Assembly: GCF_910592395.1 (NCBI RefSeq)
Contig: NC_088326.1
Coordinates: forward strand, 10,049,001-10,113,000
Direction of reading: 5' to 3'
DNA length: 64,000 nucleotides
DNA from: Lineus longissimus
Lineage: Eukaryota; Nemertea; Pilidiophora; Heteronemertea; Lineidae
Part shown: piece after piece, positions 2,956 through 63,873 of the stretch
Position numbering within the stretch: the first letter of the stretch is position 1
Layout of the letters: each line of letters starts with the position of its first letter
Made by a program: the position numbers and the translations under genes
The notes under the pieces: model-generated
The model's input: only the letters and a program-made list of their open reading frames with translations
What the model was told of the DNA's origin: nothing
Databases searched by the model: none

Positions 2956-5344
2956 AATCAAAATGGTCTCCGAAAAAAACGCCATGGAAAACAAATTTCA
3001 GTAGCGAAGCAAATTTTATCTCTAACGCCTGGCCTTCGCATCCCTGATATCGGATAACCGCTTCTGATCTAATCGAGAACTGCAATAACGTGGCTAGGCC
3101 GCCTAATCTCGGCTAATGAAAGAACTTAGCGTTTTGGCAGGCTAAATTATTGAAATTGTCCGCAATGTCATATATATATAATGACGATGGCGAGTTATAG
3201 ATGTGTCGGGTAGTTACGCATGGCGTGGCGGAATTATGGTATCATGGCGAACGACTTGGCGGGATGGTTACATGGTTTAGGTTTGATAAATATGACGTGT
3301 AAAGTCTCAGACATTTATCAAGTTATTGGACGACAGCCCGAGGCACCCTGAGACACTGACGGAGACTAACTGCTCGCAATGGTCAACCCCGGGCACAACC
3401 ATGGCCGCTACGTGAACCTTGATATCTGATGAATGATGACTGTTCCCTAGAATTGCACAGTTGTTTTGTTGGGCTTGTCCATCACTGGCTCTTGATTTAG
3501 AAAGTTCGGGACTGATTTGAGCGGTGTCGCAGTGCAGCTATAGGAGCAGACACGAAACGCCAGCAAATTATTCAAAGCGACTTGGCAATTCACGGCCACT
3601 TTCTAAAAAAATACCATAGCTTTCTTATTAACAAAATATGAGACATCGATCAAAAAATGGTGGGCCAGTAAAAAACTGCACGTTTTTTTTTTAATGGTAT
3701 ATATATACAGGTTTAAGGACCTCGGTGTTATGTCCGTTTTATCGAAAAAGTTATTATTTCTTTTTTCATTAGCTCAGACTTACCTTGAGTTGCTTAGGAA
3801 AATAAACCAAGTTCAATCAACAGAATTTAAATCATACTCCAACATTACAAAATGCGTCAGATTTTGTCTACATCCAGGTTTGAACGGCAAACCTGTTTTA
3901 GTTGCCAAAGCAAATCTGGTAAAACAAGACACCCATAACGCATCAATGATTTAATCCTCTTTGCAGCTTAAAAACAGCGACAATATCGATAACTCCTGAT
4001 GGATTCCATTTCAATCGTTCAGCCCAGCGCTTAAGAACGTATCATGGAAGTATTATGCTTTTTTCCTCAACGTAATCCCTTTTGTATACCTTAGACATTA
4101 TTTTTCGTGTGTTCTTCGGTTTCTCTTTTATCAGTGTGAGCGTAACGCAATACCCCTACAATCGGAAGGGTCGGTGGGTGATCTAATTAAGATTACTTAA
4201 TTTGAATATTAAATCATAAACAAATAGCTGTGCAAAAACGTATCGTTGTTCGCTGGCATGAAAGCCTCGCCCTCTCACAGGTTCTACTATATTACTTTTG
4301 TACATACAAGTGGTCATACGAAGGCTTTGATTTATGATGTGAAGGTTAAAATCGTCAAGTTACGATCTACAAGTTACGTAAAATTGTGCACTTCCAAAGC
4401 AGGCAGTAGGAAGTTTTCAAAAGCCCCCGAAACGCCGACGCACACGCAATTGTTCGTCTTCTTGAACGATGTCGAACAAAAGGATCGATAATCGCTTGAT
4501 GTTTCAAGGACTTTGTAGGACAACTAAAAAGGCACCTCCCCCCCCCCCCCCCCCCCCCCCCTCAAAAAATATAATCAATAAAAGTATTGTTCTTAATCAT
4601 GTTAGAATGATGAACAATGAGGTTCCGTAAGTGTTAACAGTTCTGAGGGCTTTGCAGAATCTCACTTTTTTTCTCCATGAGCCAAGGATGCAAAAGATGC
4701 AGACCACCTCCAAGTGAAAATCTTCCACCTCCGTGACCGCCTTCGTCGCTTTCCTAAAGCCCTGTCTGACAGGACGGCTTTGCACTTAACGTGAACAGAT
4801 GTCTTCATTTTCTCTGATTGACTGCGGCGCGGAGGGTCAGCGGTCAATTAGAGGTTATCATACTGCAAGTGGAAAGTTAATTGCATTAACTACGATCGCT
4901 TATAGACTGCAACTATTCAGTTAAACATCACCCTCGGTGTGACAGAGATATAGATATAGGTGTGCTGTCAAGATCACAAGGAAAATATGTGTGTTTAAAA
5001 AAACATAAAATGATATATCATGTCGTACAATTTGACGCTTTTTATGCGCTTCATATCTACTTACAAATAATTTCCTTAAAATTAAACCAACAAGAGAATG
5101 TTAAGGTCAATTTGAGAGAGTTTGGACCCTGTCCAAAGTTAGCGCCATATGGTGCTGTTTGCCAATTGCTTACCTGCAAAGTCTACTCAAACGACTTTAT
5201 CAGATGAGATCTTAAATCTGATGTAATAGCCTTTTTAACACTACTGTGTTGACCATCATGCCATCAGCTTCCATTGTCACAATTAAAACGAGCAATACTG
5301 CCACATCCCACTCGAATCATACGCTCCTTTATCATTATAGTTCA
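2956..5344. other. Gene-free stretch
   Basis: No gene supported. It holds only short unrelated frames of 60-90 codons and a 24-base poly-C tract at 4538-4561. Confidence 0.45.
4538..4561 (+). repeat. Poly-C tract (24 bases)
   Basis: An uninterrupted run of 24 C residues. Similar C or G runs occur near 8437, 23978, 41898, 56618, 60929 and 62306. The length of such runs is unreliable in assemblies. Confidence 0.9.
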
Positions 5345-41741: not shown

Positions 41742-42000
41742 TTTTGGATGTTAGCGAATAGATACGACGAAAAGAGGGACATCTCATGCGAGGCGTCCTC
41801 CTTTTCGTCGGATCGACCAACGAGTTTTTCAGAGCGCCTCTCCCAACGAAGCAGAATAACTACTACTAAATTTAGCCCTCAGATACACGGAGGTGGTGGA
41901 GGGGGGGGGGGGGGGGGCAGCAAGGCATTGCTCAAACTGCACGTACTATTATTAATGCGAGAAGTGTCATTAAATCTAACTTACTAATAATGTTTTGCAG

Positions 42001-43662
42001 GTACGAGTAGTCGCTGAATGGTTCGAAAAGGTAGTAGACCCGACCGCGACGCAGTACGTGTGTGGGATGAATGTGGATATGAAAGGCCAGGGTTTAGCCA
42101 GAAAGAACGGAGAAATCCACATGGAGATTGACCCAGTGGATGAGGCGAAGCACTTGCGGGCCAAGGAGATATCCAAGGCTTTGGACGGGAAGGACCTAGA
42201 GCTTAGAGCGCTGATGGATACGAGTAGGATGGCGATAGGCCATGCAGAAAGGCATGACATTAATAACATAGCACGTGAAGATGTCGATATGGATGACTAT
42301 TGCTATGATTGTACTGAAAGGTTGGCTCAAATGAAGACAAGGAGTTGTGAAACAAACGGCGAATTGGCGTATTTGGAACCACAGAAAACGGTATTCGGAT
42401 ACAGCTCTTGGGGATATAGTTCAAATGAAGCTGGAGGTTCTAACGCACTGTGTAATAATAAGAGTGGAGAAAAGTTGGCACCGGGGACCGGGAAAAAGTC
42501 AAACAGATCCAAAATCGCGCCCCCTCCAAACGACAGAGCGAGTCGAAGGGTAAGAAAGCTTAAAGAAGAATGGCTGAAAGAAAGTAAAAATGGGAACAAA
42601 GGCAAGGCAGCCAATGGTAAAAAGAGTGAGCATATGGACTTCGTATTAAACGAGAATGGGGAACTTTGTATACGATATAAAGAGAAGGACCCGGGAGGTA
42701 TCGAAACGGGTCATCCCACCGTTGAGAAGTGTTTGGATATAGCAAGAGTATTCGATGCGGAAGCAGGTGATGGAGACTTGGCTGTACTTCGTGAAGGGGC
42801 TTCCGAGAGAACTTTTGAGACACAGCCTAAAGGTGGACCTAAGGAACGTGCGAAGACAGCTCCCGATAAACCAGTAACAATCGCAGACCATTCGCCCACG
42901 CCTGAAGAAATTTCGGAGGCGTTGGGACTCGATGGAGATGATTTGAGTGATGTCGATTTCGATCCAGCAATCAACGAAATCTGGTGCCGAATCTGCTTCA
43001 AATTCGACAGGGCGTCGCGTGCGAGTTACGTATGCTTCGAATGCACAGAGCGCTTCTGCGCAGCCTGTGCATGTCGGCACGAGTGCGGTATCAAGGAACG
43101 TGCTAAACAGAGGCACTGTGACTTTCATATGCACCATGTGTCGCCCCCAAAGGTGATCCAGTGCAACAAGTGCGCTGTTGTAAAGCCACTGGCAAAGCAG
43201 AAAGTTCAGAGTTTTAGCGCGAAGGGCTGGAGAACGGATCGTTTTAAAGGTACAGAAGCTTGCGACAGAAAAATAAAACAACTGCAGGATAAGCAAGTCA
43301 TCCAGTTTTGCAAGAAGAAGTTCAACTTTGACAACACAGAGCACGAGCGCATTCGCGAGCATGATGAATATCTCATGATGCGTGAACGTGAGCGTCAGGA
43401 GATGATGTGCATGCGCGAGCGGGACGAGGCGATGCGCTTGCGCAAGCGTGAGGATATGATACGCATGCGCAACTACCAGATGGAGATGCGCATGCGTGAG
43501 CGAGATGAGGAGATGCGGATGCGCCAATGCGACAGGGCGATTCAAGAGCATGAGAGTCAACTTCAGCAGACGAAGGCAGCGTTGAAGGCCATGGAAGACA
43601 GAAAAGATGCATTGGTTCGCCGAAAGGTGGCGATGATTGTTAAAAAGGAAGATGTCCTATAG
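42001..43662 (+). CDS. 3'-terminal coding exon of an unrecognised zinc-finger/coiled-coil protein (5' part missing)
   Basis: A 553-codon open exon begins after a strong acceptor (TTACTAAT branch-point-like sequence, then TTTTGCAG) and runs to TAG at 43660. There is no ATG at its start, so upstream exons are expected but were not found; the first internal ATG is at 42067. Residues are counted from 42001. Residues 1-320 are hydrophilic with Lys/Arg/Ser-rich parts. Residues 329-391 hold C-x2-C-x12-C-x2-C-x4-C-x2-C, then a later C-x2-C (388-391), the ligand spacing of treble-clef FYVE-related fingers such as those of RIM/rabphilin. Residues about 440-540 are an extreme Met/Arg/Glu repeat (MRERDE-type units), predicted coiled coil. 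The finger could bind protein or lipid; this is inference. Not recognised as any named gene. No transposase or reverse transcriptase motif was seen. Confidence 0.75.
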   Translation, partial: VRVVAEWFEKVVDPTATQYVCGMNVDMKGQGLARKNGEIHMEIDPVDEAKHLRAKEISKALDGKDLELRALMDTSRMAIGHAERHDINNIAREDVDMDDYCYDCTERLAQMKTRSCETNGELAYLEPQKTVFGYSSWGYSSNEAGGSNALCNNKSGEKLAPGTGKKSNRSKIAPPPNDRASRRVRKLKEEWLKESKNGNKGKAANGKKSEHMDFVLNENGELCIRYKEKDPGGIETGHPTVEKCLDIARVFDAEAGDGDLAVLREGASERTFETQPKGGPKERAKTAPDKPVTIADHSPTPEEISEALGLDGDDLSDVDFDPAINEIWCRICFKFDRASRASYVCFECTERFCAACACRHECGIKERAKQRHCDFHMHHVSPPKVIQCNKCAVVKPLAKQKVQSFSAKGWRTDRFKGTEACDRKIKQLQDKQVIQFCKKKFNFDNTEHERIREHDEYLMMRERERQEMMCMRERDEAMRLRKREDMIRMRNYQMEMRMRERDEEMRMRQCDRAIQEHESQLQQTKAALKAMEDRKDALVRRKVAMIVKKEDVL

Positions 43663-45078: not shown

Positions 45079-45098
45079 GTAGAAACTATATATACGCA

Positions 45099-45104
45099 TT
45101 TATT
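45099..45104 (-). promoter_or_regulatory. Polyadenylation signal AATAAA of the minus-strand peptide gene
   Basis: AATAAA on the minus strand, 136 bases past the stop codon at 45240-45242. It would define a 3' UTR of about 150-160 bases. Confidence 0.55.
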
Positions 45105-45239
45105 TTCTTGGAGAAGTCGATTTACAAGAAACGAAGTAAAAGGGGACGCATTAAACAAATTTGTTGATTTCTGTATCACTTGGAAGGATTCGAAGCATCC
45201 CTTGGAATCCTTGTGGCATCCGGATCCGAGGGTCCATCT

Positions 45240-45331
45240 TTAGACGAAGTGACTGCCGCATGCCGGCCAATCCGTACACCAGTGCGACACTCGTAAAGTC
45301 CCCCTTGTTCCTGATGACCCCGGGATAAATT
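45240..45331 (-). CDS. Gene A last coding exon
   Basis: The acceptor ACATTTTTCAG is followed by 30 codons including the stop (TAA at 45242-45240). It encodes a Gly/Ser/Arg loop, then WCTDWPAC. Another frame of this exon is open for longer but does not fit the phase of the upstream exons. Confidence 0.65.
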
Positions 45332-46652
45332 CTGAAAAATGTTTAAAACTATATAATCGACAGTGAATGTATACAGGAGAGGGTAGTTAAAAACAAGTTG
45401 AAAAAACTAACTTGGGATGAGGCCGAATAAACCTAACCCCAAGTCATGCATCAAGTTAGTGAGTAACTGTTTTAAGATCACGTGGCCGCTCCAGGTCTCA
45501 TAATAATATCATTCTATGAGATGTTTGGCGGATATTTTGTTTTGTGTAACTACTAGGTTATATAAGGGGAAAATAACGCCATGAACTTACCGCATTGGCA
45601 ATCTTCCACGAATTTAGCTGAAGATGATAATTGGCAACAGTGAATTTATATTTCATAAACGAAAAAAAGTCAAACATTTCAGAACTCGCCATCAAAAGAA
45701 AATTGCAGTCATATCACAGCTACGGAGATTTCTAGGCCAGTTAAAAAGAAGTTCCAAGACCAGAAATTATGATAAAGATTTCAATATGATTCTTGGTTAA
45801 GATCAAATTCAGTTTGGTGTCGATGGAAATGCTAATTTCTAGAAGATTCTTTTAAGCCTTAGTATCCTTGTAAAGATTGTAAATGTTCTAATGTAAAGTT
45901 TGCTGATACATGTAGATAAGAAAATAAATAGGATCTTTAGAATCATACATTTTTTTCAGGATTCCGATCAAGACTTGTACGATTCTCAGTTGCAAGTAAT
46001 GCACACGTTCTTGTACACGTTTTTGATACGAAAATTAATATTGCGTATTTATTCGAAAACATCTAAATTTATAATGAACCGAAGTTTACCGTGTAAATGC
46101 ACTATGCGCCTACGTAGCCTCGTTTTGAATTCAGCGGTTATGGTCGCTTGGGTTGGTGGAAGCAATCAAAAAGTATCTAAAACCATATCATTCGTCATCT
46201 AATTTGAGATTTTTTAAGATAGAAATTGATATCTCACTGTCGAAATTGATTGTCTCACCAAACCCGCTCGGGTGGAGCTAAAAAGTTGGCAAAAACCTCG
46301 GCTAGGCCTCGGTTTTGGTCAACATTTTAGCTCCATCCTCGCGGTTTTAGTGCGACAACCAGTACCTCCAGTTCGTTATCAATTCCTTAAAACAAGTATA
46401 ATACATTCTGTAACAAGATTCGTGTATATTTCTAGTTACTGTAAATAACGAACACATTTTTGTAGAGAATGCATGTTTATGATACGAAAATGAATGATGT
46501 CTTTTTTTCATTTTTATAAGAATCATATCGGGATCTTCGCTTTCTAATATACTTTGAAATGTGAACTTACGACGGCACGTTGAGGAGCAAGCCTGACTGT
46601 TTGCCCAGCCGCACAAGGCAAACAACACACCGATTATTAGGATGACTCTCAT
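45240..46652 (-). CDS. Secreted six-cysteine peptide, CxC/CxxWPxC type (gene A)
   Basis: Coding exons on the minus strand are 46652-46571, 45617-45591 (27-nt microexon) and 45331-45240, all introns in phase 1, giving 66 residues. Residues 1-20 are a signal peptide (MRVILIIGVLFALCGWANSQ). The mature part, about 46 residues, has six Cys: CSSTC, then PKFVEDCQC (spanning the microexon), then WCTDWPAC near the C-terminus. The acceptor lies immediately before ATG, and a leader exon with TATA box lies upstream. Gene B on the opposite strand has the same exon plan and the same PK[FY]VxxCxC and CxxWPxC motifs, which is the main support for the splicing. A secreted, disulphide-bonded peptide is inferred; function is unknown and no named family was recognised. 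The first coding intron holds a fold-back element (46221-46386). Confidence 0.7.
45591..45617 (-). CDS. Gene A microexon (27 nt)
   Basis: Acceptor CATCTTCAG and donor GCG/GTAAGT. It encodes PKFVEDCQC in combination with its neighbours. It is the counterpart of the 33-nt microexon of gene B at 51715-51747. Confidence 0.65.
46221..46386. repeat. Fold-back element, family of 47767-47914, in gene A intron
   Basis: Arms contain CTCGGGTGGAGCTAAAA on the left and the inverted TTTTAGCTCCATCCTCG on the right, plus GAAATTGAT and ATCAATTCC at the ends. The sequence at the loop is shared with the element at 47767-47914. Confidence 0.7.
46571..46652 (-). CDS. Gene A exon 2: signal peptide and first Cys pair
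   Basis: 82 bases. The acceptor TTTTATTACAG abuts ATG, and the donor reads C/GTAAGTTC. It encodes the signal peptide and CSSTC, ending in phase 1. Confidence 0.7.
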
Positions 46653-46874
46653 CTGTAATAAAAAAAAGTACAAACAAATATAAATATTTAATTGTTACAT
46701 GTACGTAAATTAAACAGCACATGATAATTGGTGTGTATAAAGTAGACATGGGTAGTAGAACCCAGATGGCAAGTTATCTTAATTTCAGAAAAATTGCACA
46801 GATTGGTCACTTTGTGAAATCATCGACAAAGTGTCCACAACCAATATTAATAACAAAAATCACGAGCAACCTAC

Positions 46875-46905
46875 CTCGAATTCGCTTTCACTTAAGATGG
46901 TTGTT
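46875..46905 (-). other. Gene A leader exon (5' UTR, start approximate)
   Basis: It ends at the donor TTCGAG/GTAGGT (exon edge 46875). The start is placed about 30 bases downstream of the TATA box by convention. Non-coding. Confidence 0.5.
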
Positions 46906-46928
46906 TGGTGACTAGGCATCCCGTTACT

Positions 46929-46936
46929 CTTATATA
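46929..46936 (-). promoter_or_regulatory. TATA box of gene A
   Basis: TATATAAG on the minus strand, 54 bases before the leader-exon donor. Spacing from TATA to donor closely parallels gene B (about 61 versus 55 bases counted from the start of the TATA box). Confidence 0.6.
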
Positions 46937-48028
46937 CCTCATACCCTGTGCCAATAATTGAATTTGATTGCCGATTCGCGTGGGGTCACGAATCAAGAAG
47001 TCGATATAGCAATATAATTTTAATCTAAGTTAATGCGCCTCAAAATGCTACAATTAATCATCATATACTTTGTTATTCTTTGAGATAACGATGTTTATCC
47101 GGTTTTTGTAACAAGAGCCCATGAGTATAAAAGTTAAATTATCGGAATTTGTTGAAATTCGCCTTTGGCAAGTTGTCATCCTGTTGATCGCGTGATGGAT
47201 TTTAGATAAATATTTATTACCGAGAGTCCTGTGCGTGTTGGTTTGTAGGCGAGGTAAATCATAATTCTAAAGTACCTTGGTACCGTAAAGTCAACTTTTA
47301 AATGGAAAATGCATAAGCCTCGTTCTGAGAGTGGAGTGTTTTGGACACGCAACCAAGTTCCCTCGGGTTGCATTAAAATGTGGAAACCATGCACACGTCA
47401 CGTCAATGGAATTTCAGCTCACTTCAGAAGTTTGAGGCTCTCAAAACACTGCTTCAAACACAAATCAGCCAAGGAAGCATCAACCACCCTAAGTTTTTTA
47501 ATGAGCACTACACATATTTGCCGAGAAAAACGCTCCAAATAGCCCATTTGCGCGGATTTTAGCATCACTTGAGCGAGCCGATGCGGATTTCCTATGCGCG
47601 CTGTACAAAATGTACATGTCTCATTTTCTGTAACGTTGCCGTAACATAATGTAAACAACGGCGCTACCGGCGCTCCGGGCCGGCGATGGATGGAATTTGC
47701 CAAATTCGCACATATCCAAGTTATTTTCGTGGCCTATCTTTTTAAGTTTGAGGTATTTTAGAATAGAAATTGAACCCTCGGCTTCGGACCTTGGTTGAGT
47801 TACCAAGACACTCTCGGGTGGAGCTAAAATTTCGTCCAAACCCGAGCCGATTTTTAGCTCCACCCTCGAGTGTCTTGGTAACTCAACCAAGGTCCTCCGC
47901 CTCGGGTTCAATTCCTTAACTCTAGAAATTATTCTGATGGGACTGATTTACTCAGACCAGATAACAAGACATTGAATAAATGTTTGATAATTATGATACA
48001 TCTTTGATTAGGCATACTAAATAATTGG
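46937..48028. promoter_or_regulatory. Shared divergent intergenic region of genes A and B
   Basis: About 1.1 kb between two outward-facing TATA boxes. It contains a fold-back element at 47767-47914. Short open frames here are not supported. Any common control of the pair would lie here; this is inference. Confidence 0.4.
47767..47914. repeat. Fold-back element in the divergent promoter region
   Basis: The outer arms ATTGAACCC...GG and CC...GGGTTCAAT pair inverted, followed by ACCTTGGTTGAGTTACCAAG, ACACTC and GGGTGGAGCTAAAA in both arms, around a short loop. Related to 46221-46386. Confidence 0.85.
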
Positions 48029-48035
48029 TATAAAA
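48029..48035 (+). promoter_or_regulatory. TATA box of gene B
   Basis: TATAAAA, about 30 bases before the expected start of a short leader exon that ends at 48084. Confidence 0.6.
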
Positions 48036-48058
48036 TTGAGAGTTTGCAACGAACATCA

Positions 48059-48084
48059 CAGTCGAATGGCTTTCAGAAATCAAG
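48059..48084 (+). other. Gene B leader exon (5' UTR, start approximate)
   Basis: It ends at the donor ATCAAG/GTAAGA. Non-coding for the annotated product; the ATG that begins the protein is the first base of the next exon. Confidence 0.5.
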
Positions 48085-48478
48085 GTAAGAGATATTTCAT
48101 ACTGAGCGATCTTTTCAGCTTACTTCAGGTATTAGCTTGGCTCACAGAACAATAGGCCCAGTCTTGGGAGGACCTGAATTGTTCGAATTTGGTGTAAACG
48201 TAATGATTACGTTGTCGTTACCAATATACAGGCATAAATAAGAACAGAAATAAAAGAATCGGGGACGATTTGATCCCGAGAACTGGATGTAAAGCAACAC
48301 GTTAAAGGTGGAGATAATTTTTTACCAAAACCTAGGAGTCATTCTAGCAAGGTAACGATGTCGTCGCTAAACCAGTGTCACCAACCCAAACTCCATTTTT
48401 CAAAATTTAGGACAGGGACTAAACGTTGCTTTGTAGAATGCGTGTAGTATTCGGATAACAGGATTCTTTGTTTTCCAG

Positions 48479-48761
48479 ATGAGATATTTAATACTACTAG
48501 GTTTTGTTGTCGCTGGCCTCACAACTACCATGGCAGGCTCTAAACATGGTAGTGGCCAAAAAAGTGGCAGCGGTAGTTCACAGTCAACGGCGACAACAAC
48601 TCAGACAACAACAACGATTCCGACAACAACAACGATCCCGACAACAACAACGATACCGACAACAACAACGATACCGACAACAACAACGATCCCGACAACA
48701 ACAACAACGGCGACGGCATCAACAACATCAACAGCGATCCCAGGACCAACAACCACCCCTG
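48479..48761 (+). CDS. Gene B exon 2: signal peptide and Thr-rich domain
   Basis: 283 bases, 94 codons plus one base, donor CCTG/GTGAGT. It encodes the signal peptide and the mucin-like repeat. Confidence 0.8.
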
Positions 48762-51700
48762 GTGAGTTTTGACTTTGTGTTATTGAAACACAGTTTCTCG
48801 TGTTTGGTCACGTGACCTATGCAGATGATCTACACTTTTCTGAAAACATGTACACCGTATATCTTCCAAGGTTGAACGATACGATACGTTTCAGTCCCAT
48901 CCGCTTCCAATGATTATGTTAAGCCATTATTTTATGAGGCTGATGTCATAATGCATGTATAATCTTCGTAGGATTTTTAAATGGGAAGACATGTTTTCAC
49001 GACAACGACATTGATTCTTTGCTATATTTTGATTCACCCAAAAGAGTCAAATACGCCATTTTTGATTAAAAAAACTAATTTAATCAAGTTCCTTTTAACC
49101 TATACGATTGTAATCGGGAAATTCGATATGGGGTGTTGTATTTTGGCATCTGGCCTTGGCCTAGGCGTGCACTATATATATATATATATATAACGAGTCT
49201 TGTATAGCGCAGTATCCGATCCATTAGGATCGCTCAAAGCGCTGCATCACTGCTCATGAAGGCTTCAGAAAAGAGGAAATGTTTCAAGGAACGTTTGAAA
49301 GGAACAATGTCTTGGATGTTTCTGATAGTTGCTGGAAGTTTATTCCACATTTTTGGTGCACCAATAGAAAAAGCTCTAGTTCCTATTGATTGCACCTTTG
49401 CTCTGGGAGGTTGAAGGAGAGTTTCAGCTGAGGAGCGAAGGGGACGGTTAGGTGTGTAGATTGATATAAGCTCGGAGAGATAGGATGGGGCCAGACCATG
49501 GAGACATTTGAAAGTAAGGAGGAGGACCTTGTAAGCGATACGCTGTTCAACAGGGAGCCAATGTAGAGACTTGAGGACTGGGGTAATATGTGACCTCTTT
49601 CGAGACTTGGTAATAAGACGAGCCGCGTTGTTTTGCACTTACTGCAGTGGACGGACAGTAGATTTAGGCAAGCCAAGAAGAAGGGAATTGCAGAAGTCAA
49701 GTCTAGAAGTGATGAGGGCTTGAATATAGAGCCTGGTGGTGATGACCGATAGATATCTGCGGATCTTTCCAATATTGCCGATATGAAAGTATGAGGCCCT
49801 AACACAAGCACTGATGTGCTGTTTGAAAGTGAAATCACTGTCAAAAACTACACCAAGGTTTCTCGCTGAAAGAGAAGCATACACATCAGCGTCAATGATG
49901 CGGACTGATTGCAGCCTAAGCACGTCGATGTGCTTCTTGGGACCAATGAACAATAGATCTGTCTTTTCACCATTACATTTGAGAAAGTTTCTTACCAACC
50001 ATTTGTTGAGGTCGAAAACACCGGTTGACATCAAGTCACATGTGGGGCCGAGCTCAGGCAGTGTGAAAACCAGGTATAACTGACTGTCATCGGCATAAAA
50101 GTGGTAAGAAATGCTATGTGCCATGATGATAGCACCGATAGGTGTAGTATAGATGGAAAATAACAGGGGACCAAGTATGGAACCCTGAGGTACCCCACAC
50201 TTGATCATACTTGGCTTTGAAAGTTTACCCTCAACGCACACCTCCTGACACCTGCCACTAAGATAGGACGTGAACCATTTCAATGCCACCCCTGAGACTC
50301 CCATTGCACCAAGGCGATTTATCAGCTTCACATGATCCACAGTATCGAAAGCAGCGCTCATGTCCAAAAGTACTAAGAGGACACATTTCTTTTCATCGAG
50401 CGCACGAATGACATCATTATGGACACGAGTAAGCCCAGTTTCAACGCTGTGCATAGGACGATAGGCTGATTGAAAAGGTTCACGCAGATCGTTGCTATCC
50501 AAGTGTACTGATAATTGATTGGCAACTACCCTCTCAAGCACCTTTGAGAGAAAGCATAGATTGGACACCGGGCGATAGTTTTTAAGTACATCGGCATCCA
50601 ATGATGGTTTCTTAATAAGTGGATTAAGAATAGCCCTCTTGAAACTATCAGGGACAACACCACAACTGAGAGAGGAGTTGATGATTGCAATCATAACCTC
50701 AACTATACCCGGTGTACACTTTTTCAGCAAAGGTGTTGGAATGGGGTCAAGTGAACAGCTAGTAGCTCTCATTTGACCAAGGAGTTTAACAAACTCAGTG
50801 GAAGTAACAGGCTTAAACTCATCAAGCTTGGAGGAGCACAGATACTGTTCATGCACTTGCTCATCACCGTCCTGGTCAGGGAAAGACTCCCTAATCAGTT
50901 GAACCTTATTTGCAAAATATGCACTGAACCTTTCTGCAAGTTCATTGGCGCACTCATGACTCGGCAAAACGGTGTTCTTCTTGCCATAGAGTAAAGAGTT
51001 CACTGTTCTGAAAGTGTCAACAGTTGAAGATCCCTCAGCCTGCACAGCAAAATGGTCCTCCTTGGCTGTCTCAATCATTGAATCCACAAGTCTGGCTTGA
51101 TGTTTCCAAATCTGGCGATCAATTGTAAGTTTTGAGCGCCGAAATTTCCGTTCAAGTTTACGCTCAGTCTTTCTTTCCTGTACAATCTCGTCACTGAACC
51201 AAGGTGCATTGGGACGGACTGTAACGCGTTTGGACTTCGCAGGAGCATGTTGGTCAAGTGTGTTTCGGAGAACCTTGTCATAACACACAGTTAGAGTCTC
51301 AAGATCACTTTCAAGATCACTAGTATTGCATGCGGGAAAAAATGTACTGTCGGGCAGAAGTCAGAACGCACTTTTTGCGCTATCCGTATTGGTTGCAAGT
51401 ATCGGCTTTAACTGTCGTTAGAAACCAAAGCTGAGAAATGATACTCGCTCTGATCTGCAAAAACCTTTTTTCCATTACACCGTGAAGTCCTTGGCGCGTG
51501 ATGATATAAGATGCAACAATGGCGACTTATGCTGCAACTAGTAGCTCCGGTTGATTCTCATAGGCATCGGCCGGGAGTAAGAAGCCTTTTTGTATAATGG
51601 TTGGTATGACTAGGTGCAATGCTTGGCATAAAATCCCGGATGTAGAGGAAGGCCATAGATCCCAAGACCCAGAAGCTTATCATTCATACACATAAACGCA

Positions 51701-52384
51701 TTTGATTTTTTCAGAACCCCCCAAATACGTCAACAACTGTAAATGCAGTAAGTATGCTTTAAGAAATCTTCTTTGTCTGCATTTTTTTAAATACATTGTA
51801 TGTGTTTTATTAAATTACTACAATAATTTTATTGTTTGCTTATATAAGTGGATGGCGGGAAAGAGCGTTAATTGATACGAGATGGTGCCGTCCTCAAAAA
51901 CAGCGTAATATTCAATCATCAGCCAGTATATGATCCGCGTTGCATTGGTAACTGTACATATGCATTGCGATCGCGTAGTGTAATAGAAGTAAAAATGGCC
52001 GCGGGCACAGACTGATAATGGACGTAGTACAAAACATATGTCTGTAGGCATGTACATCGTATACATAGTAACATACAACAATAACAAAATTACACACACG
52101 ATGACTATTAGTCATTGGTTAATTTCAAGTTTTGAATTTCGAAGTCGAGTTTAGAATTTCGAAGTTGAGTTTTGAATCTCGAAATGAGTTTTGAATCTCG
52201 AAATCGCCAAAAAAAATAAATTTTAGGAATGTTCGCTAATCGGGAAAATTTGGCGTGTTACAGTATTTCATGTACACACCTTCTCTCTTTTACAGTACAG
52301 AACTGCAATGGGTTCAACGTCACCAATTACTGCATCCCCTGGCCGAGTTGTACCTCAAACCTCACATTTACGACGGTTCTATGA
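48479..52384 (+). CDS. Secreted mucin-like peptide with CxC/CxxWPxC tail (gene B)
   Basis: Coding exons are 48479-48761, 51715-51747 and 52296-52384, all introns in phase 1, giving 134 residues. The acceptor TTTTCCAG abuts ATG. Residues 1-19 are a signal peptide. A Gly/Ser/Lys stretch follows, then a Thr-rich tract with five TTTTIP units (about 43-72), a typical O-glycosylation substrate. The microexon supplies PPKYVNNCKC. The last exon supplies NCNGFNVTNYCIPWPSC with NVT and NLT glycosylation sequons and a TGA at 52382. Organisation and the PK[FY]VxxCxC and CxxWPxC motifs match gene A. The mature part has five Cys, an odd number, so intermolecular pairing is possible. An antisense LINE sits in the second coding-gene intron. 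Function is unknown; extracellular or mucus location is inferred. Confidence 0.72.
48605..48694 (+). repeat. 18-bp minisatellite (five units) in gene B
   Basis: Five in-frame units of ACAACAACAACGATNCCG, each coding for TTTTIP or its permutation, differing mainly at one base. A likely site of length variation between alleles. Confidence 0.95.
49173..49192 (+). repeat. (TA)n tail of the antisense LINE
   Basis: About ten TA units directly follow, on the minus strand, the GCGCTATACAAGACTCGTTA end of the LINE at 49173-51360. This places the 3' terminus of that element here. Confidence 0.75.
49234..51288 (-). pseudogene. Reverse transcriptase of a CR1/L2-group LINE, interrupted by one stop
   Basis: The frame is open from about 51360 to 49234 except for a single in-frame TAA at 49641-49639. 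Recognisable reverse transcriptase blocks are LLDMSAAFDTVDH, then GVPQGSILGPLLFSIY, then the catalytic YADD at 50097-50086. The C-terminal part after the stop has the family block LHWLPVEQRIAYK, then LTFKCLHGLAPSYLSELI and the MWNKLPATIR block. RNA-templated DNA synthesis is the family function. This copy lacks the endonuclease and has the stop, so it is not expected to be autonomous. With a single disabling change in this region, insertion seems fairly recent. Confidence 0.88.
51715..51747 (+). CDS. Gene B microexon (33 nt)
   Basis: Acceptor GATTTTTTCAG, donor TGCA/GTAAGT. It encodes PPKYVNNCKC, matching PKFVEDCQC of the gene A microexon at six of nine positions (P, K, V, C, C plus Tyr/Phe as a conservative change). 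Confidence 0.7.
52296..52384 (+). CDS. Gene B last coding exon
   Basis: Acceptor CTCTCTTTTACAG at 52295. It encodes the YCIPWPSC motif and ends at TGA 52382-52384. A second TACAG ends at 52300, five bases later, and would shift the frame. Confidence 0.68.
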
Positions 52385-54283: not shown

Positions 54284-54373
54284 AGCCGAAGTTATTCAGA
54301 ATTTCCCGGTTAATAGACGTCAAGACGAAGGACCCAAATCTTCATTCGAGAGTTTGGGGTATCATCGGTCATC

Positions 54374-55439
54374 ATGGATCAAGAAAGGACCATTAAAAAA
54401 GAAACAACAACGACAACTACCACGAAAACAATATTCCAAGTCGAGGATAATGATGCAAATGCATATAATACCCAGTATGGGACAAATTTCGGCCAGGCCG
54501 CGGGGCCAGTGTATCAGCAACCGTACCCAGTGTCTATGGATCCGCTCCCAGGCCCGAGTAAGTATAAAAATGGTTCTCAAGTCTCGGTCATGCGGCCGAA
54601 AACCGCACGAGAAAAGAAAAAAGAGAGGGACAATGATAGGGAAGACTCGGATGAAGAAACCTTCCTAACACTGACGAAGTATCTGTGTTCTACGTCATCA
54701 TCTCATGGGGTCTCACGTGCGGCTGAGTCTAAAAATATCATCAGGAGTGTGGCGTGGTCTCTCCTGTTTCTTGGATCTTTGAGTGCCTTTTGTCTGCAAG
54801 CCTCATATCTGCTCACCGATTACATGGCCATGCCCATCGACGTCAAAACAGAGATTATCACCAAGAAGAATGTGGTGTTTCCGGCGATAACCATTTGCAA
54901 CATGAACCAGATGCGGCGTTCATCATTAGAAAACTCTTCATACGCAACCCTGACCGCATTGGATAAGACAGCATCCGAACTAGCCGCAGAGAACGTTCTG
55001 GCCGCCGTTGTCAACTCCCGGAGAAAGAGAGCCATTGCAAAGGGTGAGAAACCGCCGACCTACACTGCGGACGAAGTGCTGCGGCTTCACGCGAAGATCC
55101 GATTTTTAACCGAGTTTGGCGGCAGGAAGAAGAAATTGGACGAATTCGGTACCAAGGGAGTCTGGATCCCGAAGCGGAAGAAGATTTTGAAGGAAAAAGA
55201 TTCAAAGGACATTGTGAAAACGGCAGAGGGTGGCGAGAAAAAGAAGCAGCGCTTGAAACGGGTTAAAAAAAAACGGGAAGTGCCGGACACGCCGGAAGAA
55301 CGAGCGGAAAGAAGCGATGAAGAGGAAGAGGCGTTACAGCAGGAGCAGGAGGATTACTACGGGGAGAGTTTGATGAGAAACAAGCGAAATGCAGACAGAC
55401 CAGGCAGCAATGACTACTATGACTACTATGACTACTATG
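54374..55439 (+). CDS. Channel exon 1: N-terminus, TM1 and charged insertion
   Basis: 355 codons plus one base. The donor is TATG/GTAAGG; the frame stays open to 55585 but those codons are intronic. It holds the HG motif, the first transmembrane helix, FPAITICN, both furin-type sites and a DYYDYYDYY tract at the end. Confidence 0.92.
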
Positions 55440-58400
55440 GTAAGGCTTGTTATTATTGGTGTCTATATATACCCAGGTCGAAATTCCAGCCAAGGAGATT
55501 TTATCTTGCCCAGTTTCATGTACAAGCACAATGTACAATATTTGAAAGATTCATGGAAGATTCGAATTTTACAGTAATCTTGTAAAAAACGTATATATTG
55601 ATATACACAAAACTTGATTTCGAGTCTTGATCGTTGGATGATTTTCGAGCCGGGCAATCATTAAAATTTGCTTTCCCCGGACATTGGCATTTTTTATCAA
55701 TTGAGGGCCCAAGGGTTTTGTTATTTCACGCCACGTTGCACACAAGCGAAGGCCCTGTGCTATTCATGTTGCGTGGAACTCTTCTGAAAAAGCTTTAAAC
55801 ATATTTCGACCAACGCAAATATGCACGCATACAGGTGTTTCAGCACACTGATCAGGCCCCACAGGGTTTTGAATTTTTTGCAAACCTGTTGACGGACTTT
55901 CATTTTGCTAAAAAAAACTTTAAATGACAACTACTTTTGCTCATTAGTGTGACAAATTAATCAAATCCCAGGCAACAGAAACCGATCTGACATCTGCCAG
56001 TACTAATGACTCTGACAAACTTATTAAATTCTAGGCAACTTAGACCGGTTTGACAACTGCCATTACTATTCTTGACAAATCTATCAAATTCAAGGTTACA
56101 GAAATCGATCTGACAATTCAACTGCTATTACTAACGAAAGTGACAAATCTATCATATTCCAGGCAGTAGGAACATCTCTGACAACTACTATTACTATGCA
56201 TATGAAGAATATTATCAGGAGGCAGCAGAGTTCGAAGATTATATTGGGGATTCCTTGGGAATTGACATGGACACTATGGATAATTACTACGATATGTCGA
56301 CGTACGATTTAGGTTTCGTTGACTATTCATACCTCGAGAACATCACAAAGTAAGGCCAGTAACATTAATTTTATAACCCCCTTATGCCATGCTATAGGCC
56401 TAAAATCATGTCGTACAAACAAAAATATTTATGGTTGAATACGTTAAAACTACATTTACATCAATTCTGATCCGAGATTGTAAATTTTAACCAGTATTTA
56501 TATAACTATCCCCCCCCGCCCCTCTCCCCACCACCAGTTACTCGCCATCATTGACATTGTGTGCTAGCCAACTGCTTCTTCGGTCAACTGCCATGATGAC
56601 ATCATCCTAACTATATACCCCCCCCCCCCCCCCCACCACCACCACCACCACTACCACCACCCTTGCTTCTCGCTCACCAGCCCTATTACCGAAGAGCTCC
56701 CTATCAAGACCTGAGCCTTCCCCATATTATTGTTCAAATGATTTATGGTTAAATGCGTTAACACTACATGTACATGTACATCAATTCTGATCCGAGATTG
56801 TAAATTTTAACCAGTATTTATATGATTAAAGGATTGATGATTGTTGGACTGATCGGTGTGGGATAATTTTTTTTTGTTTATCTTCAGTGATAAATCCTTT
56901 GATCAACTTCTCAAGGTGTCACAGACCTCAGATTATAGTGACGTCATGGATACTCTGCGGCCAACCAGAGAGGAGTTGAGAAATTACGGTCATCAGGGCA
57001 AAGATATGATGATTCAGTGCAGTTTCGATAAGAATACATGTAGTTTTACGTGAGTATAGGAGTTTGAAAATAAGATAATTGTGGGTCATATACCATCCTC
57101 ATTGGCGAATTCCGCTCTGGATAGTGCAGAGGAAAAATCTGGTGATGTCTGGTGGATAAGTGTTGGATAGACGTCAAAAACACTTGAAAATACATGTAAT
57201 CAGTAAAAGTAAATATTTGATAGTTCTTTTTACTATTCTATTAGTTCCTAGTGCACCGAGTGTAAAATGAGCTGTTTTTAAAAATAACTTATTTCACTTT
57301 TTTCTTATACTCGTTCGATAGGAGTATATATTATTAAACATTTAACGCCTATTTTAAGACATTCGTCGGCGTGGCTTAAATAACTATACCCGTTTTGTCG
57401 ATGAATTAAAATCATTTTTACTCAACAAAATTCACTCCAGTAGATAGGTTTCTTATAAAGGACATCGTCCTGCCTTTTCATATAATATTTGGATTTTTTT
57501 CAGAGATTTCAAACGCATAAACAACGCAAAGTATGGAAACTGTTATAGTTTCAATGTGGAGCAACCTGGGAAGTTCATAAAGAAAACCAGTAGGTTTGGA
57601 TCGCAATATGGTACGTAGAAAATGTATTTAGAGTGTGTTTATCCAAGCGATCTGATGCTCGTTCTCATAAAGTAAATTTTGAATAATTGTAATTAAAAGC
57701 AAACCTATCAGTCAGGCTCTCCGTAAAACACATAGCGGCAGTTGTTAGGTGGATTTGTTATATCTTCCCACTCAGAGGTCGGTGGAGTTTAGGGTGTAGG
57801 CTTAGCGTGTTATTTAAGCTGCTTGTTGTACAAATGAAAAACACGGAGACATTTTTTGTAGGAGAGGAGCCCTAGTTCATCTATTTGTTTCCTAAATCAC
57901 ACATTCCACTGCCCTTTCCAATTTTCGTGAGAAGATGACTGATGATCGGTGACCGCTCCCTAGTCCGAAGGCACGCTAGTCTGAATAACCGCTACTCCGA
58001 AAAGTACGTTATAAAATTCATTTTGAAAAATACCCCGTTAGTCCGATTGTCCACTAAGGCCGAAATCAGGGGTTAGTTAGGGAGTGAAGGACGAAGGTTA
58101 CATCTCATCCCGATATTACGAGTAGTGAATGAGGGGTTATGGTACGCCTACTATAAGCGGGTGTGCTATTATGTCAATTGAGCGGTTTCATATAATGAGT
58201 TAATCTATTACTGAATTGGTGTAACACGACATGATCGATATCTTGCGAAAGCATGTTTTTCTTGTCCAACAAATAAAAATCGAAACTCAGAGTCTAATTA
58301 GTAATTAATATTTATTATAACTTAGTTATGTATCTTAGCGAGGTAGTACGACCACTTTGGCCAGCGTTTCCTCGAACCCCCTCCCCGCGAGTCAATTTCA

Positions 58401-61400: not shown

Positions 61401-63873
61401 ACCCGAACCAATCCTCAATTATCATACGTCGCGCTTCTTTTTTAGCGTCGAGTATCCCGACTTGGCACACCGTGGGGTGAATGTACGAATGGTAACGACC
61501 CAAACATCAAACTCGAGTACAAGGGATCGTATTCGGTCACGGTAGGTTATGTTCCTTCGGCTCATCGTCGCCTTTATGACCCTATCCTCGGCCAAGGTCG
61601 GGTCCTTGATTTGGTGTGGAGATCGGCAATCTGTCTTCATCTCTCACCAGTGATTGGGTGTAATTAGTAAAGCAACTTCATATGGTTCGTAGAGCACCAG
61701 CTGTGAAATAAGAGGTACTTTCCAAAAAGAGAGGTAAAAAAATAGGCCGGTCTATTTGACAGGCCGCTCGCCGAACAGGCATCTTTTGTTGTCCTGTTTG
61801 GAGAGCCGCTTGCCAAACAGCACTAAAAAGCCACCCTGTTCGGCCAGCCGGGCTTGCCAAACAGGTAAAAAATCTACCCTGTTTGGCGAGCTGGAGACTT
61901 TACAACACATTAGCCAATCGGAGAGCAATGGTGTCATATTTGAATTAATATGCGTATAATTAACAATGGCCGATTGCTCGCTTTCGATTCATTTTCTTTT
62001 ACAAAACTCCTTGTCAAAAATCGATGGAGAGGTGTATACACGAGTATGTGATTAAGTAAAATGGCTAAGGTCCTTCGCTTTAATTCCTGTATTGAATGAT
62101 AATGAGCTCTTCGAAAACTACAAATATAAATGAGTTCGGCTCTCCATTCAGGACAAGAAACAGTCGCTGTTTGGTAAGCCGGGCTTGCCAAGTAGTCACT
62201 TCCAAAAAAATAACCAAAGGATCGACATCATTGCTTACATCACGTACATGAGATCATACAAAACTTACATTTGATTTTCTGTGCCTTCGTTAGGGTTTTT
62301 TTCAGGGGGGGGGGGGGTATATCAAAGGCGTTCTTCAAAGATGGTAAAGGGACAATGTGAACTTGGGAGTTGCAATCCTACCCTGCGTCATGAATTGGCG
62401 GATGCGCACAATGACTGGACAAGGGGGCCTGATTGAGAGTAATCGTGATCGTTCAAAGAGCAAATTGGTTGTTGGTTGTTGGTTTAATACTCTGCTATTA
62501 ACCGGAGTCCTTCAATATAAATGATTGTATTGAACAGGTTGGAAGACTCTTGCTAAACGAACCATCTCCTTGAGAATTTATCAGGGAACAATTTCTATAA
62601 TTATCAACTTCACATTTTATTTTGTCAGGGCTGCATGACCAGTTGCGTTCAGTCCAGTTTGAGAGATGAATGTGGCTGTGTCGATCTTATTCTCAGTGAG
62701 AAGTCAACGCAGGAGAGGTGCAGTATAGCGAACTACACGCAGGGTATTTATACAATAGACTCCCGACGAGCAGTTCTTGAACTACATGCGGATTATAGAT
62801 TTATTGATGACGTCGCTCCCCGTGATGACTGCCATGACGGGTTGATGACAACATCATCCAACAGTTCAAACGCTTTATATTCTAAAGTCAATTCTGTAAA
62901 AATCTATAAAGTCTCTCTGCACCGATCGATGGACATCCTGCCCATAAACAGTTGTTCGCGATGACGGTTACGCACCTTGCCGACAATGTTTCTTTTTTTT
63001 AAATCGCATTTGGAAGTCCACGAAAATTAAGACGCGTAAATTTATCAGTTTTAAATTGATGTGCATAATAATATACATTGTATTTTTCTAATCCTGTCTT
63101 TCAGTGCAGTGTCGTGCAAGGGTCTATATGCTACACAGTCTCAACCAGCTGGTGTGTTACTGCCCGGATCAATGCGAGTAAGTACCTTTACAAACGACCC
63201 CGCTCGGCCTTATCCAGCTCTCGAAGTAAAATTTGGGATAGAAATAATCCCTTCCCACTCCGTCAATCAAATCGAAATTTTCTAAGGTATACATTACCCA
63301 CAAGAACACCGCGAATTTTTTTCGGATTTTAATAGACCCGTTTTGTCTTTACTAAACTCATCAATCTATCGATTACAGAGAGGAATGGTTTGAGACGACT
63401 ATTTCGCAGTCGGATTGGCCAAGTGCCCGATATTCCCCTATGATGGTTGCAAGGATGAACGAGTTCGATTATGACTCGAAGCTACTCGACCAGCTCTCTC
63501 CTGAGTACATAACGTAAGTCAATGAGAGTCACAATGGTGGATACATGATTTTCCAGTGGTGGGGTGGGAGGTCTTCAAGCACGAAGTTACGGGGTTGATG
63601 GAGGGGGAACTTGACCGCCCTCCTGCCCCCTCCTCCTTCGTGCCTTCATTTCCTCACGCCACTTGAGTGGATTCGAACAACTGTCGATATAACGGCTTCA
63701 ATGATAAAACCTTTGCGCTTCTTCGACTATCTCCCTTGATTTGACAAAGAAATTTAACAAAATAACGGTTTTGCACTGACTGTTCTTCCTTTTGCAGAAA
63801 GAACTTTGCTCGAGTCCACATATACTTTCAAGAGTTGAATTTTCACCAGATCGTCGAGTCACCAGGATACACG
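54374..63873 (+). CDS. DEG/ENaC-family sodium channel subunit (3' end beyond window)
   Basis: Trimeric, amiloride-sensitive-type cation channel of the plasma membrane. Ten exons (54374-55439, 56163-56349, 56888-57049, 57504-57610, 60293-60456, 61446-61541, 62629-62743, 63105-63177, 63379-63513, 63798-63873) give 2181 bases, exactly 727 codons, with every junction phase-compatible. Cytosolic N-terminus with the gating His-Gly motif at H111-G112; first transmembrane helix about 122-147; FPAITICN at 169-176 just outside it; GHQGKDMMIQC before KYGNCYSFN; GIRVVIHPYD...PFPEDQG; GTPWGEC; the Cys-rich thumb (CMTSC, CGC, CYCPDQC, WFETTISQSDWPSA); and KNFARVHIYFQEL before the second helix, which is not in the window. 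Residues 185-430 form a long charged, Tyr-rich insertion absent from typical members, with furin-type RRKR at 216-219 and RNKR at 335-338. The exact subfamily and ligand are not assigned. Confidence 0.95.
55951..56200 (+). repeat. Four tandem copies of the exon 2 acceptor region
   Basis: Units start GACAAA(C/T)T at 55951, 56014, 56074 and 56142. In every unit an AG lies exactly 19-20 bases after the start (55970, 56033, 56093, 56161). It is followed by a Gly-starting segment similar to the start of exon 2, with (T/C)TGACA about 15 bases later. Only the last copy is the real acceptor. A partial fifth copy (TGACAACTACTTTTGCTCAT) precedes the array. Confidence 0.8.
56163..56349 (+). CDS. Channel exon 2: Tyr/acidic extracellular segment
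   Basis: 187 bases, phase 1 in and phase 2 out; acceptor CATATTCCAG, donor CAAA/GTAAGG. It encodes a Tyr- and acid-rich stretch (NYYYYAYEEYYQEAAEFEDY) ending at YLENIT. Tyr in acidic context suggests possible sulphation; that is inference. Confidence 0.88.
56430..56828 (+). repeat. Direct repeat of about 85 bp in channel intron 2
   Basis: Copies at about 56430-56512 and 56738-56828 share CATCAATTCTGATCCGAGAT and TGTAAATTTTAACCAGTATT, and flank a C-rich and CCA-repeat tract. Confidence 0.85.
56888..57049 (+). CDS. Channel exon 3: upstream of the palm/beta-ball core
   Basis: 162 bases, phase 2 in and 2 out; acceptor TTATCTTCAG, donor TTAC/GTGAGT. It ends with the family block RNYGHQGKDMMIQCSFDKNT. 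Confidence 0.92.
57504..57610 (+). CDS. Channel exon 4: YGNCY motif
   Basis: 107 bases, phase 2 in and 1 out; acceptor GATTTTTTTCAG, donor TATG/GTACGT. It encodes DFKRINNAKYGNCYSFN, a family hallmark. Confidence 0.93.
57594..59725 (+). repeat. Segmental tandem duplication in channel intron 4
   Basis: The exon 4 end plus intron from about 57594 is repeated from about 58419 (TTTGGATCGCAATATGGTAC versus TTTCGATCGCTATATGGTAC). Collinearity continues for hundreds of bases (GCAAACCTATCA, CAGGCTCTCCGTA, GGCGGCAGTTGTTAGGTGG-like blocks). A later block at about 58074-58380 recurs at about 59368-59725 (TTAGGGAGTGAAGGACGAAG, GCGAAAGCATGTTTTTCTTG). The second unit is longer by roughly 460 bases. Confidence 0.85.
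60293..60456 (+). CDS. Channel exon 5: GIRVVIH and PFPEDQG blocks
   Basis: 164 bases, phase 1 in and 0 out; acceptor TTTTATTTGTAG, donor AAAG/GTAATT. It encodes GLRLTVN, GIRVVIHPYD and PFPEDQG, central conserved blocks of the family. Confidence 0.95.
61446..61541 (+). CDS. Channel exon 6: GTPWGEC block
   Basis: 96 bases, 32 codons, phase 0 at both ends; acceptor GCTTCTTTTTTAG, donor CACG/GTAGGT. It encodes RRVSRLGTPWGEC and a segment ending EYKGSYSVT. Confidence 0.9.
61761..62203 (-). repeat. GTTTGGC-module repeat, copy 2 (inverted, interrupted)
   Basis: The reverse complement of 29250-29480, split into 61761-61902 and about 62125-62203 by roughly 220 bases absent from copy 1. Lies in channel intron 6. 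Contains TTTGGAGAGCCGCTTGCC and CTTGCCAAACAGGTAAAA as the inverse of blocks in copy 1. Confidence 0.8.
62629..62743 (+). CDS. Channel exon 7: start of the Cys-rich thumb
   Basis: 115 bases, phase 0 in and 1 out; acceptor TTTTGTCAG, donor CAGG/GTATTT. The donor was chosen because its phase joins exon 8 in frame and continues the Cys pattern (CMTSC, CGC, then C in CSIANYTQ). The open frame continues to 62964 but is intronic. Confidence 0.85.
63105..63177 (+). CDS. Channel exon 8: CYCPDQC
   Basis: 73 bases, phase 1 in and 2 out; acceptor CTGTCTTTCAG, donor GCGA/GTAAGT. It encodes QCRARVYML and LVCYCPDQC, equivalent to the CxCxxxC element of the family. Confidence 0.92.
63379..63513 (+). CDS. 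Channel exon 9: end of thumb, post-Cys region
   Basis: 135 bases, phase 2 in and 2 out; acceptor GATTACAG, donor TAAC/GTAAGT. It encodes WFETTISQSDWPSA, matching the SxxxWP block of ENaC-type channels. Confidence 0.92.
63798..63873 (+). CDS. Channel exon 10: pre-TM2 strand
   Basis: 76 bases, phase 2 in and 0 out; acceptor CTTTTGCAG, donor ACG/GTACGT. It encodes KNFARVHIYFQELNFHQIVE, the strand that leads into the second transmembrane helix. The next exon lies beyond the window. Confidence 0.93.

Follow-up and report, generated by a model that had tools for sequence, protein, structure and literature searches.

Four putative secreted cysteine-rich genes of Lineus longissimus appear to share a C-terminal tail split by a microexon

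The window studied here, a stretch of 64,000 nucleotides from Lineus longissimus (Nemertea; contig NC_088326.1, positions 10,049,001 to 10,113,000, forward strand), carries two genes for small, putatively secreted cysteine-rich peptides, designated M (minus strand) and P (plus strand). Judged by their sequences, M and P are the short members of a modular family that numbers at least four genes, all on one chromosome; the other two are genes A and B, which lie on the same contig (C20) outside the window. The products of all four genes end in a tail of approximately 38-45 residues, which is split over a microexon of 24-33 nt (coding CxC) and a last exon (coding [WY]CxxWPxC). The heads that precede this tail differ: A and B have six-Cys modules (five and two, respectively), the head of P is a Thr-rich stalk resembling a mucin, and M has CSSTC only. 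An earlier interpretation of this DNA (the sequence-only reading) had proposed a divergent pair of paralogous genes for secreted Cys-rich peptides that might belong to a family. The paralogy, the secreted-looking, Cys-rich character of the products and the family are all borne out, but the divergent pair is not the basic unit, since the family extends to at least four genes. The chief hint at a function comes from the six-Cys modules of A and B, which that reading could not take into account. The features of M and P are as follows, in window coordinates.

46929..46936, minus strand: TATA box of M, TATATAAG (direct sequence reading)
46875..46906, minus strand: 5' leader exon of M (donor GTAGGT seen after 46875; 5' end placed from the distance to the TATA box)
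46571..46652, minus strand: coding exon 1 of M, 82 nt, signal peptide and CSSTC; the acceptor abuts the ATG; ends in phase 1
45591..45617, minus strand: microexon of M, 27 nt, phase 1-1, codes (P)KFVEDCQC
45240..45331, minus strand: last exon of M, 92 nt, ending ...HWCTDWPACGSHFV and then stop
45099..45104, minus strand: polyadenylation signal AATAAA of M
48029..48036, plus strand: TATA box of P, TATAAAAT (direct sequence reading)
48059..48084, plus strand: 5' leader exon of P (donor GTAAGA seen after 48084; 5' end placed from the distance to the TATA box)
48479..48761, plus strand: coding exon 1 of P, 283 nt, signal peptide, Gly/Ser stretch and Thr-rich (TTTTIP)n stalk; the acceptor abuts the ATG; ends in phase 1
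48604..48705, plus strand: 18-bp tandem repeat of 5.7 copies, coding the TTTTIP run
51715..51747, plus strand: microexon of P, 33 nt, phase 1-1, codes (E)PPKYVNNCKC
52296..52384, plus strand: last exon of P, 89 nt, ending ...NYCIPWPSCTSNLTFTTVL and then stop

In the sequence-only reading, M and P faced away from each other on opposite strands across about 1.1 kb, and their TATA boxes are indeed 1.09 kb apart. The TATA box, the leader exon and the acceptor directly abutting an ATGAGA start, which it had described for both genes, are present in each at the positions listed; every coding intron of M and P is phase 1, as had been stated; and the 27- and 33-nt microexons and the last exons with [WY]CxxWPxC were confirmed by sequence. 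The rebuilt product of M has 66 residues, comprising a signal-peptide-like start, CSSTC, PKFVEDCQC and HWCTDWPAC, with six Cys after the signal peptide, so that M is little beyond a signal peptide and a tail. The rebuilt product of P has 134 residues, comprising the signal peptide, the Gly/Ser stretch, the Thr-rich run, PPKYVNNCKC and NYCIPWPSC, with five Cys after the signal peptide, 44 Thr among its 134 residues and two N-glycosylation sequons in the tail. Signal peptides were assigned by eye from the hydrophobic start. The splicing proposed for M and P is derived from the nucleotide sequence and from the recurrence of the pattern in four genes.

Chance or artefact as the source of the pattern shared by M and P is ruled out by shuffle counts and by a scan of the surroundings, in line with the earlier argument against chance agreement. 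The window has two instances of a phase-1 microexon that ends in C.C and has, no more than 3 kb further on, a phase-1 exon with C..WP.C ahead of a stop; none of 400 dinucleotide shuffles has one, and an earlier set of 60 shuffles of the window also gave none. The motif C..WP.C alone occurs twice in the window, compared with a mean of 0.08 in the shuffles, and within 264 kb that comprise the window and its surroundings it occurs, in any frame, only at the M and P sites.

Additional loci sharing the microexon and the WPxC motif, which the sequence-only reading had proposed to look for in related genomes, were found in the same genome rather than in a relative. The 391-Mb source assembly was searched with a DNA pattern for [WY]C..WP.C, whose first position also admits Cys and stop codons, and 78 sites were obtained, compared with 18 for the reversed control. 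Thirty-eight of the 78 sites start with a Trp or Tyr codon; two of them are M and P, five were left out (four copies of one repeat and one site with an in-frame stop), and the other 31 were inspected. A C.C microexon lies upstream in two of these 31, namely A and B, and the remaining 29 have none within about 1.4 kb or more. Among the other 40 sites, 12 were inspected with approximately 0.5 kb of upstream sequence and showed no microexon, a distance shorter than the 0.7 kb that separates the microexon of B from its last exon. A second pattern, C.PWP.C, gave 55 genome sites compared with 15 for its control, and on C20 it found only A, B and P; on the other chromosomes, inspection was confined to sites that the first pattern had also given. 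Patterns built on Trp-Pro would miss members with a divergent tail.

Gene A lies at 3.91 Mb of C20 on the minus strand, 6.2 Mb from the window, and has eight coding exons and 258 residues; gene B lies at 9.74 Mb on the plus strand, 0.35 Mb from the window, and has five coding exons and 147 residues. All coding introns of A and B have GT-AG ends and are phase 1, both genes have a 24-nt microexon, and the last exons end in YCLPWPEC (A) and WCRPWPEC (B), both of the form CxPWPEC, followed by the stop. An acceptor-like AG directly precedes the ATG in four of the four genes. In genome-wide protein searches, A and B retrieve each other (best E 0.003 with A as the query and 7e-5 with B), mainly via the modules; the tail matches between them are weak (E 0.07 and 0.12). 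The M protein and the P tail as genome-wide queries retrieved only their own genes, which is unsurprising for such short exons.

The site at C20:11223363 (WCNLWPEC; locus L033, C20:11223190-11224790) has neither a microexon nor a six-Cys exon in 4.1 kb upstream and is attributed to chance or decay. The sole further match in the A and B protein searches, C20:13469038, is a minisatellite. Similarly, locus L060 (C16:6024560-6026400) is an 83-bp minisatellite whose unit, translated in one frame, gives WCLEWPTC or WCLKWPTC, and it seems to be a chance match to the tail.

The four tails were aligned with MAFFT, and four Cys, one Gly and Trp-Pro are invariant. Leave-one-out tail profiles scored M at 32.2, P at 28.4, A at 40.7 and B at 51.6 bits, compared with at most 13.3 bits for the reported shuffles (5000 drawn per gene, 4805-4906 reported); these shuffles did not keep the Cys places, so Cys spacing adds to the signal. 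The net charge of the tail is acidic in A (-3) and B (-5).

Beta-defensins are antimicrobial peptides with disulphide pairing 1-5, 2-4 and 3-6, and their six-Cys pattern C..C..C..C..CC (PF13841) is found in the five modules of A and the two of B. These modules lie between the signal peptide and the microexon, each on one phase 1-1 exon, and over all seven the spacing is C-x5-9-C-x3-9-C-x10-11-C-x5-CC. No six-Cys exon, of which A has five and B two, appeared when the two regions were each shuffled 300 times, and a scan of 264 kb around the window gave none on either strand. The repeat part is cationic, with a net charge of +11 in A and +8 in B, and six of the seven modules are cationic. In comparisons with human beta-defensin 1, a single reference picked by eye for similarity, against shuffles with fixed Cys, the score of module A3 was reached by 0 of 2000, A1 (0.0065) and A2 (0.0385) were marginal, and the other four were not significant, all seven tests being uncorrected. 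The reference sequence is identical to PDB 1e4s. The modules may be called beta-defensin-like by pattern, and they are not filed as members of that family; what suggests the kinship is the spacing, the phase of the exons and the similarity of one or a few modules.

The resemblance extends to vertebrate beta-defensins and to the C-terminal domain of big defensins: the A and B modules have six Cys ending in CC, are mostly cationic and have a spacing compatible with that of human beta-defensin 1 (6,4,9,6,0). On the other hand, A and B differ from both groups in being tandem chains of five or two modules followed by the four-Cys WPxC tail. In the review of big defensins (PMC7203481), a phase-1 intron is described at the 5' end of the Cys-rich exon, and such an intron precedes seven of the seven module exons of A and B. 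That source also describes a hydrophobic, globular N-terminal domain ahead of the Cys domain, whereas in A and B the first six-Cys module directly follows the signal peptide.

The nearest published analogues of the short members that were met are the KARTESH/CHUPA peptides of the starfish Asterias rubens, which are described in PMC11891777 as small, secreted and of no known family, with four Cys in the mature part. According to that paper, an acidic stretch and a convertase site precede their Cys region; M and P have neither, a distinction drawn from this description. A KASH2 structure is said there to be in the PDB (PMC11891777), and the tail profile found no sequence in the PDB. Mucin-like glycoproteins (PF01456) have a counterpart in P only, whose Thr-rich repeat stalk, unlike theirs, ends in a Cys tail. 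Finally, schistosome micro-exon genes also encode secreted peptides with in-phase microexons. Their coding region consists mostly of microexons, whereas M, P, A and B have one each.

Consistent with the earlier remark that the motif was not recognised as a described family, neither the tail nor the modules had a match above chance in Pfam or the PDB, nor in NCBIfam, which was run for A, B and M. The family-search matches were few and weak: the best was that of the P stalk to PF01456 (23.7 bits, E 5e-5; cut-off 34.7), and the rest had E 0.065 or worse. Whole A and B proteins had no match in Pfam. Protein-database searches with M and with the P tail gave no candidate, by a method that needs shared five-residue words and is weak for divergent relatives. 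An alignment of M and P retrieved 20 proteins (best E 8.5e-4 and 1.5e-3), which were rejected: all have a TTT run, and none has C..WP.C or C.{2,4}W..C. No relative of the gene B protein or of the tail alignment was found among viral contigs. A text search of the literature for PWPEC, PWPSC and DWPAC found no paper titled on this subject, and one for tandem defensin domains yielded nothing beyond the big-defensin review and one unrelated paper. Within the reach of these searches, the tail and module family appears to be undescribed.

With phase-1 coding introns throughout, the gain, loss or exchange of an exon leaves the reading frame intact, and the heads most likely diverged in this way. The reading that we favour, and to which we give about an even chance, is that of a modular phase-1-exon family in which A and B would be multivalent host-defence effectors and M and P would be tail peptides of defence or mucus. 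All four products would be secreted and oxidised, with two disulphides holding the folded tail together as a small cap. The six-Cys modules of A and B, most of them cationic, might act together as the effector, and the acidic tail as a cap, masking or retention piece. Anionic pieces of other defensin precursors mask or retain, and the combination of a cationic repeat part with an acidic tail in A and B would suit such a role. M may be a released peptide of the tail type. P could be a glycosylated tail that a mucin-like stalk carries in mucus or on epithelia, and its 44 Thr and two tail sequons suit a mucus or surface glycoprotein. We would rank the possible roles with defence or mucus first, structural secretion second and signalling third.

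The more specific proposal, that the CxC microexon and the CxxWPxC last exon form a new, exchangeable four-Cys C-terminal module mounted on quite different secreted heads, is put forward tentatively, with a probability somewhat short of even. If this is true, the secreted proteins of animals would gain, with an undescribed domain family, a new small disulphide module. One phase-1 exon kit would yield a chained effector of the defensin type as well as tail peptides that are free or borne on a mucin, and a single genome would show the recombination of defensin-like units, of a stalk resembling a mucin and of a shared tail. A and B would then be unusual chained defensin-like proteins of up to five units. 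In addition, the microexon would be part of the reason why the family could escape ordinary gene prediction and protein searches.

Several observations weigh against the host-defence reading. M and P contain no six-Cys module, so a defence role could be assigned to them only by association with A and B. Module A1 has no net charge, and the best of the seven modules reached 14.1 bits with the beta-defensin profile, below the cut-off of 22.2. A genome search with PF13841 returned neither A nor B and nothing past the cut-off, although this search is weak, as none of 14 control genomes matched either. In the comparison with human beta-defensin 1, modules A4 (0.55), A5 (0.77), B1 (0.24) and B2 (0.19) were not significant. 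There are no regular dibasic sites between the modules of A and B, and release of single modules is thus not indicated. Since P has five Cys and M has six, their disulphide pairing must differ. Finally, neither AATAAA nor ATTAAA occurs in the 716 bases past the stop of P, and the models that include a leader exon and a TATA box are those of M and P, no leader exon having been identified for B.

The strongest of the other explanations, in our view unlikely, is a structural or adhesive secretion in which the tail cross-links or anchors mucus, cuticle, adhesive or an egg coat, and A and B are Cys-rich matrix proteins rather than antimicrobials. The Thr-rich stalk of P and its sub-threshold Mucin match would fit this explanation, and the odd number of Cys in P could permit intermolecular bonds; M, however, has no stalk, and the cationic charge of six of the seven modules and their defensin-like Cys pattern weigh against it, although they are still compatible with a matrix role.

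Less probable again is a signalling function, with the products serving as hormones, neuropeptides or attractants, possibly with a channel, for instance the neighbouring DEG/ENaC, as their target. Small disulphide-bonded peptides that are secreted often serve as ligands, and an ASC-family channel exon starts approximately 2 kb downstream of P, but the adjacency of this one gene is in itself no evidence for a ligand-receptor pair. Furthermore, A and B are far off and multi-module, and neither M nor P has a dibasic site or a Gly-Lys/Arg amidation motif.

A protease-inhibitor family, in which the six-Cys modules would be shortened WAP-like or other inhibitor modules, is improbable. CPGSKKCC in module 1 of A resembles WAP, which is the sole Pfam match of that module (E 4.2), and human beta-defensin 1 itself weakly matches WAP proteins (antileukoproteinase, E 0.33 and 0.39). 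The WAP core (PF00095), however, has eight Cys, with CC-x3-C-x3-C after the doublet; this core is inside no module exon, each exon ending at most three residues past CC, and no inhibitor match was found in the PDB. The least probable explanation, in which M and P would be short copies of the longer genes, in decay or not expressed, could draw on their missing modules and, in P, on the intronic LINE, the expanded coding tandem repeat and the polyadenylation signal not found, yet in both genes the frames are open, the splice sites are GT-AG, a TATA box is present and the tail motif is intact, and no six-Cys exon remnant was seen in their introns outside the LINE.

The LINE just mentioned lies in the first coding intron of P and is in large part responsible for the great length of this intron:

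49639..51360, minus strand: LINE-type reverse transcriptase open reading frame (ORF), no part of P

The last intron of P contains a 20-bp tandem repeat of four copies (52128-52206). The channel gene downstream of P begins with its first exon or exons at 54317-55585 on the plus strand (DEG/ENaC; ASC, PF00858); it is related to acid-sensing and FMRFamide-gated channels and carries a long insert rich in Lys, Arg and Glu. A possible further DEG/ENaC exon at 62557-62964 on the plus strand was assigned by eye from its Cys pattern and has no Pfam match at E 0.001. At 41980-43662 on the plus strand, there is an open frame of 560 residues whose C-terminus is charged and repetitive and which contains a Cys/His-rich stretch (WCRICFKFDR...CFECTERFCAAC...); it matches no Pfam family at E 0.001. 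A long inverted repeat at 47776-47915, recognised by eye, separates M and P. It resembles a palindromic stretch with GGTGGAGCTAAAA and TTTAGCTCCATCC at approximately 46237-46345 in the first intron of M, and the two possibly represent one family of short hairpin elements.

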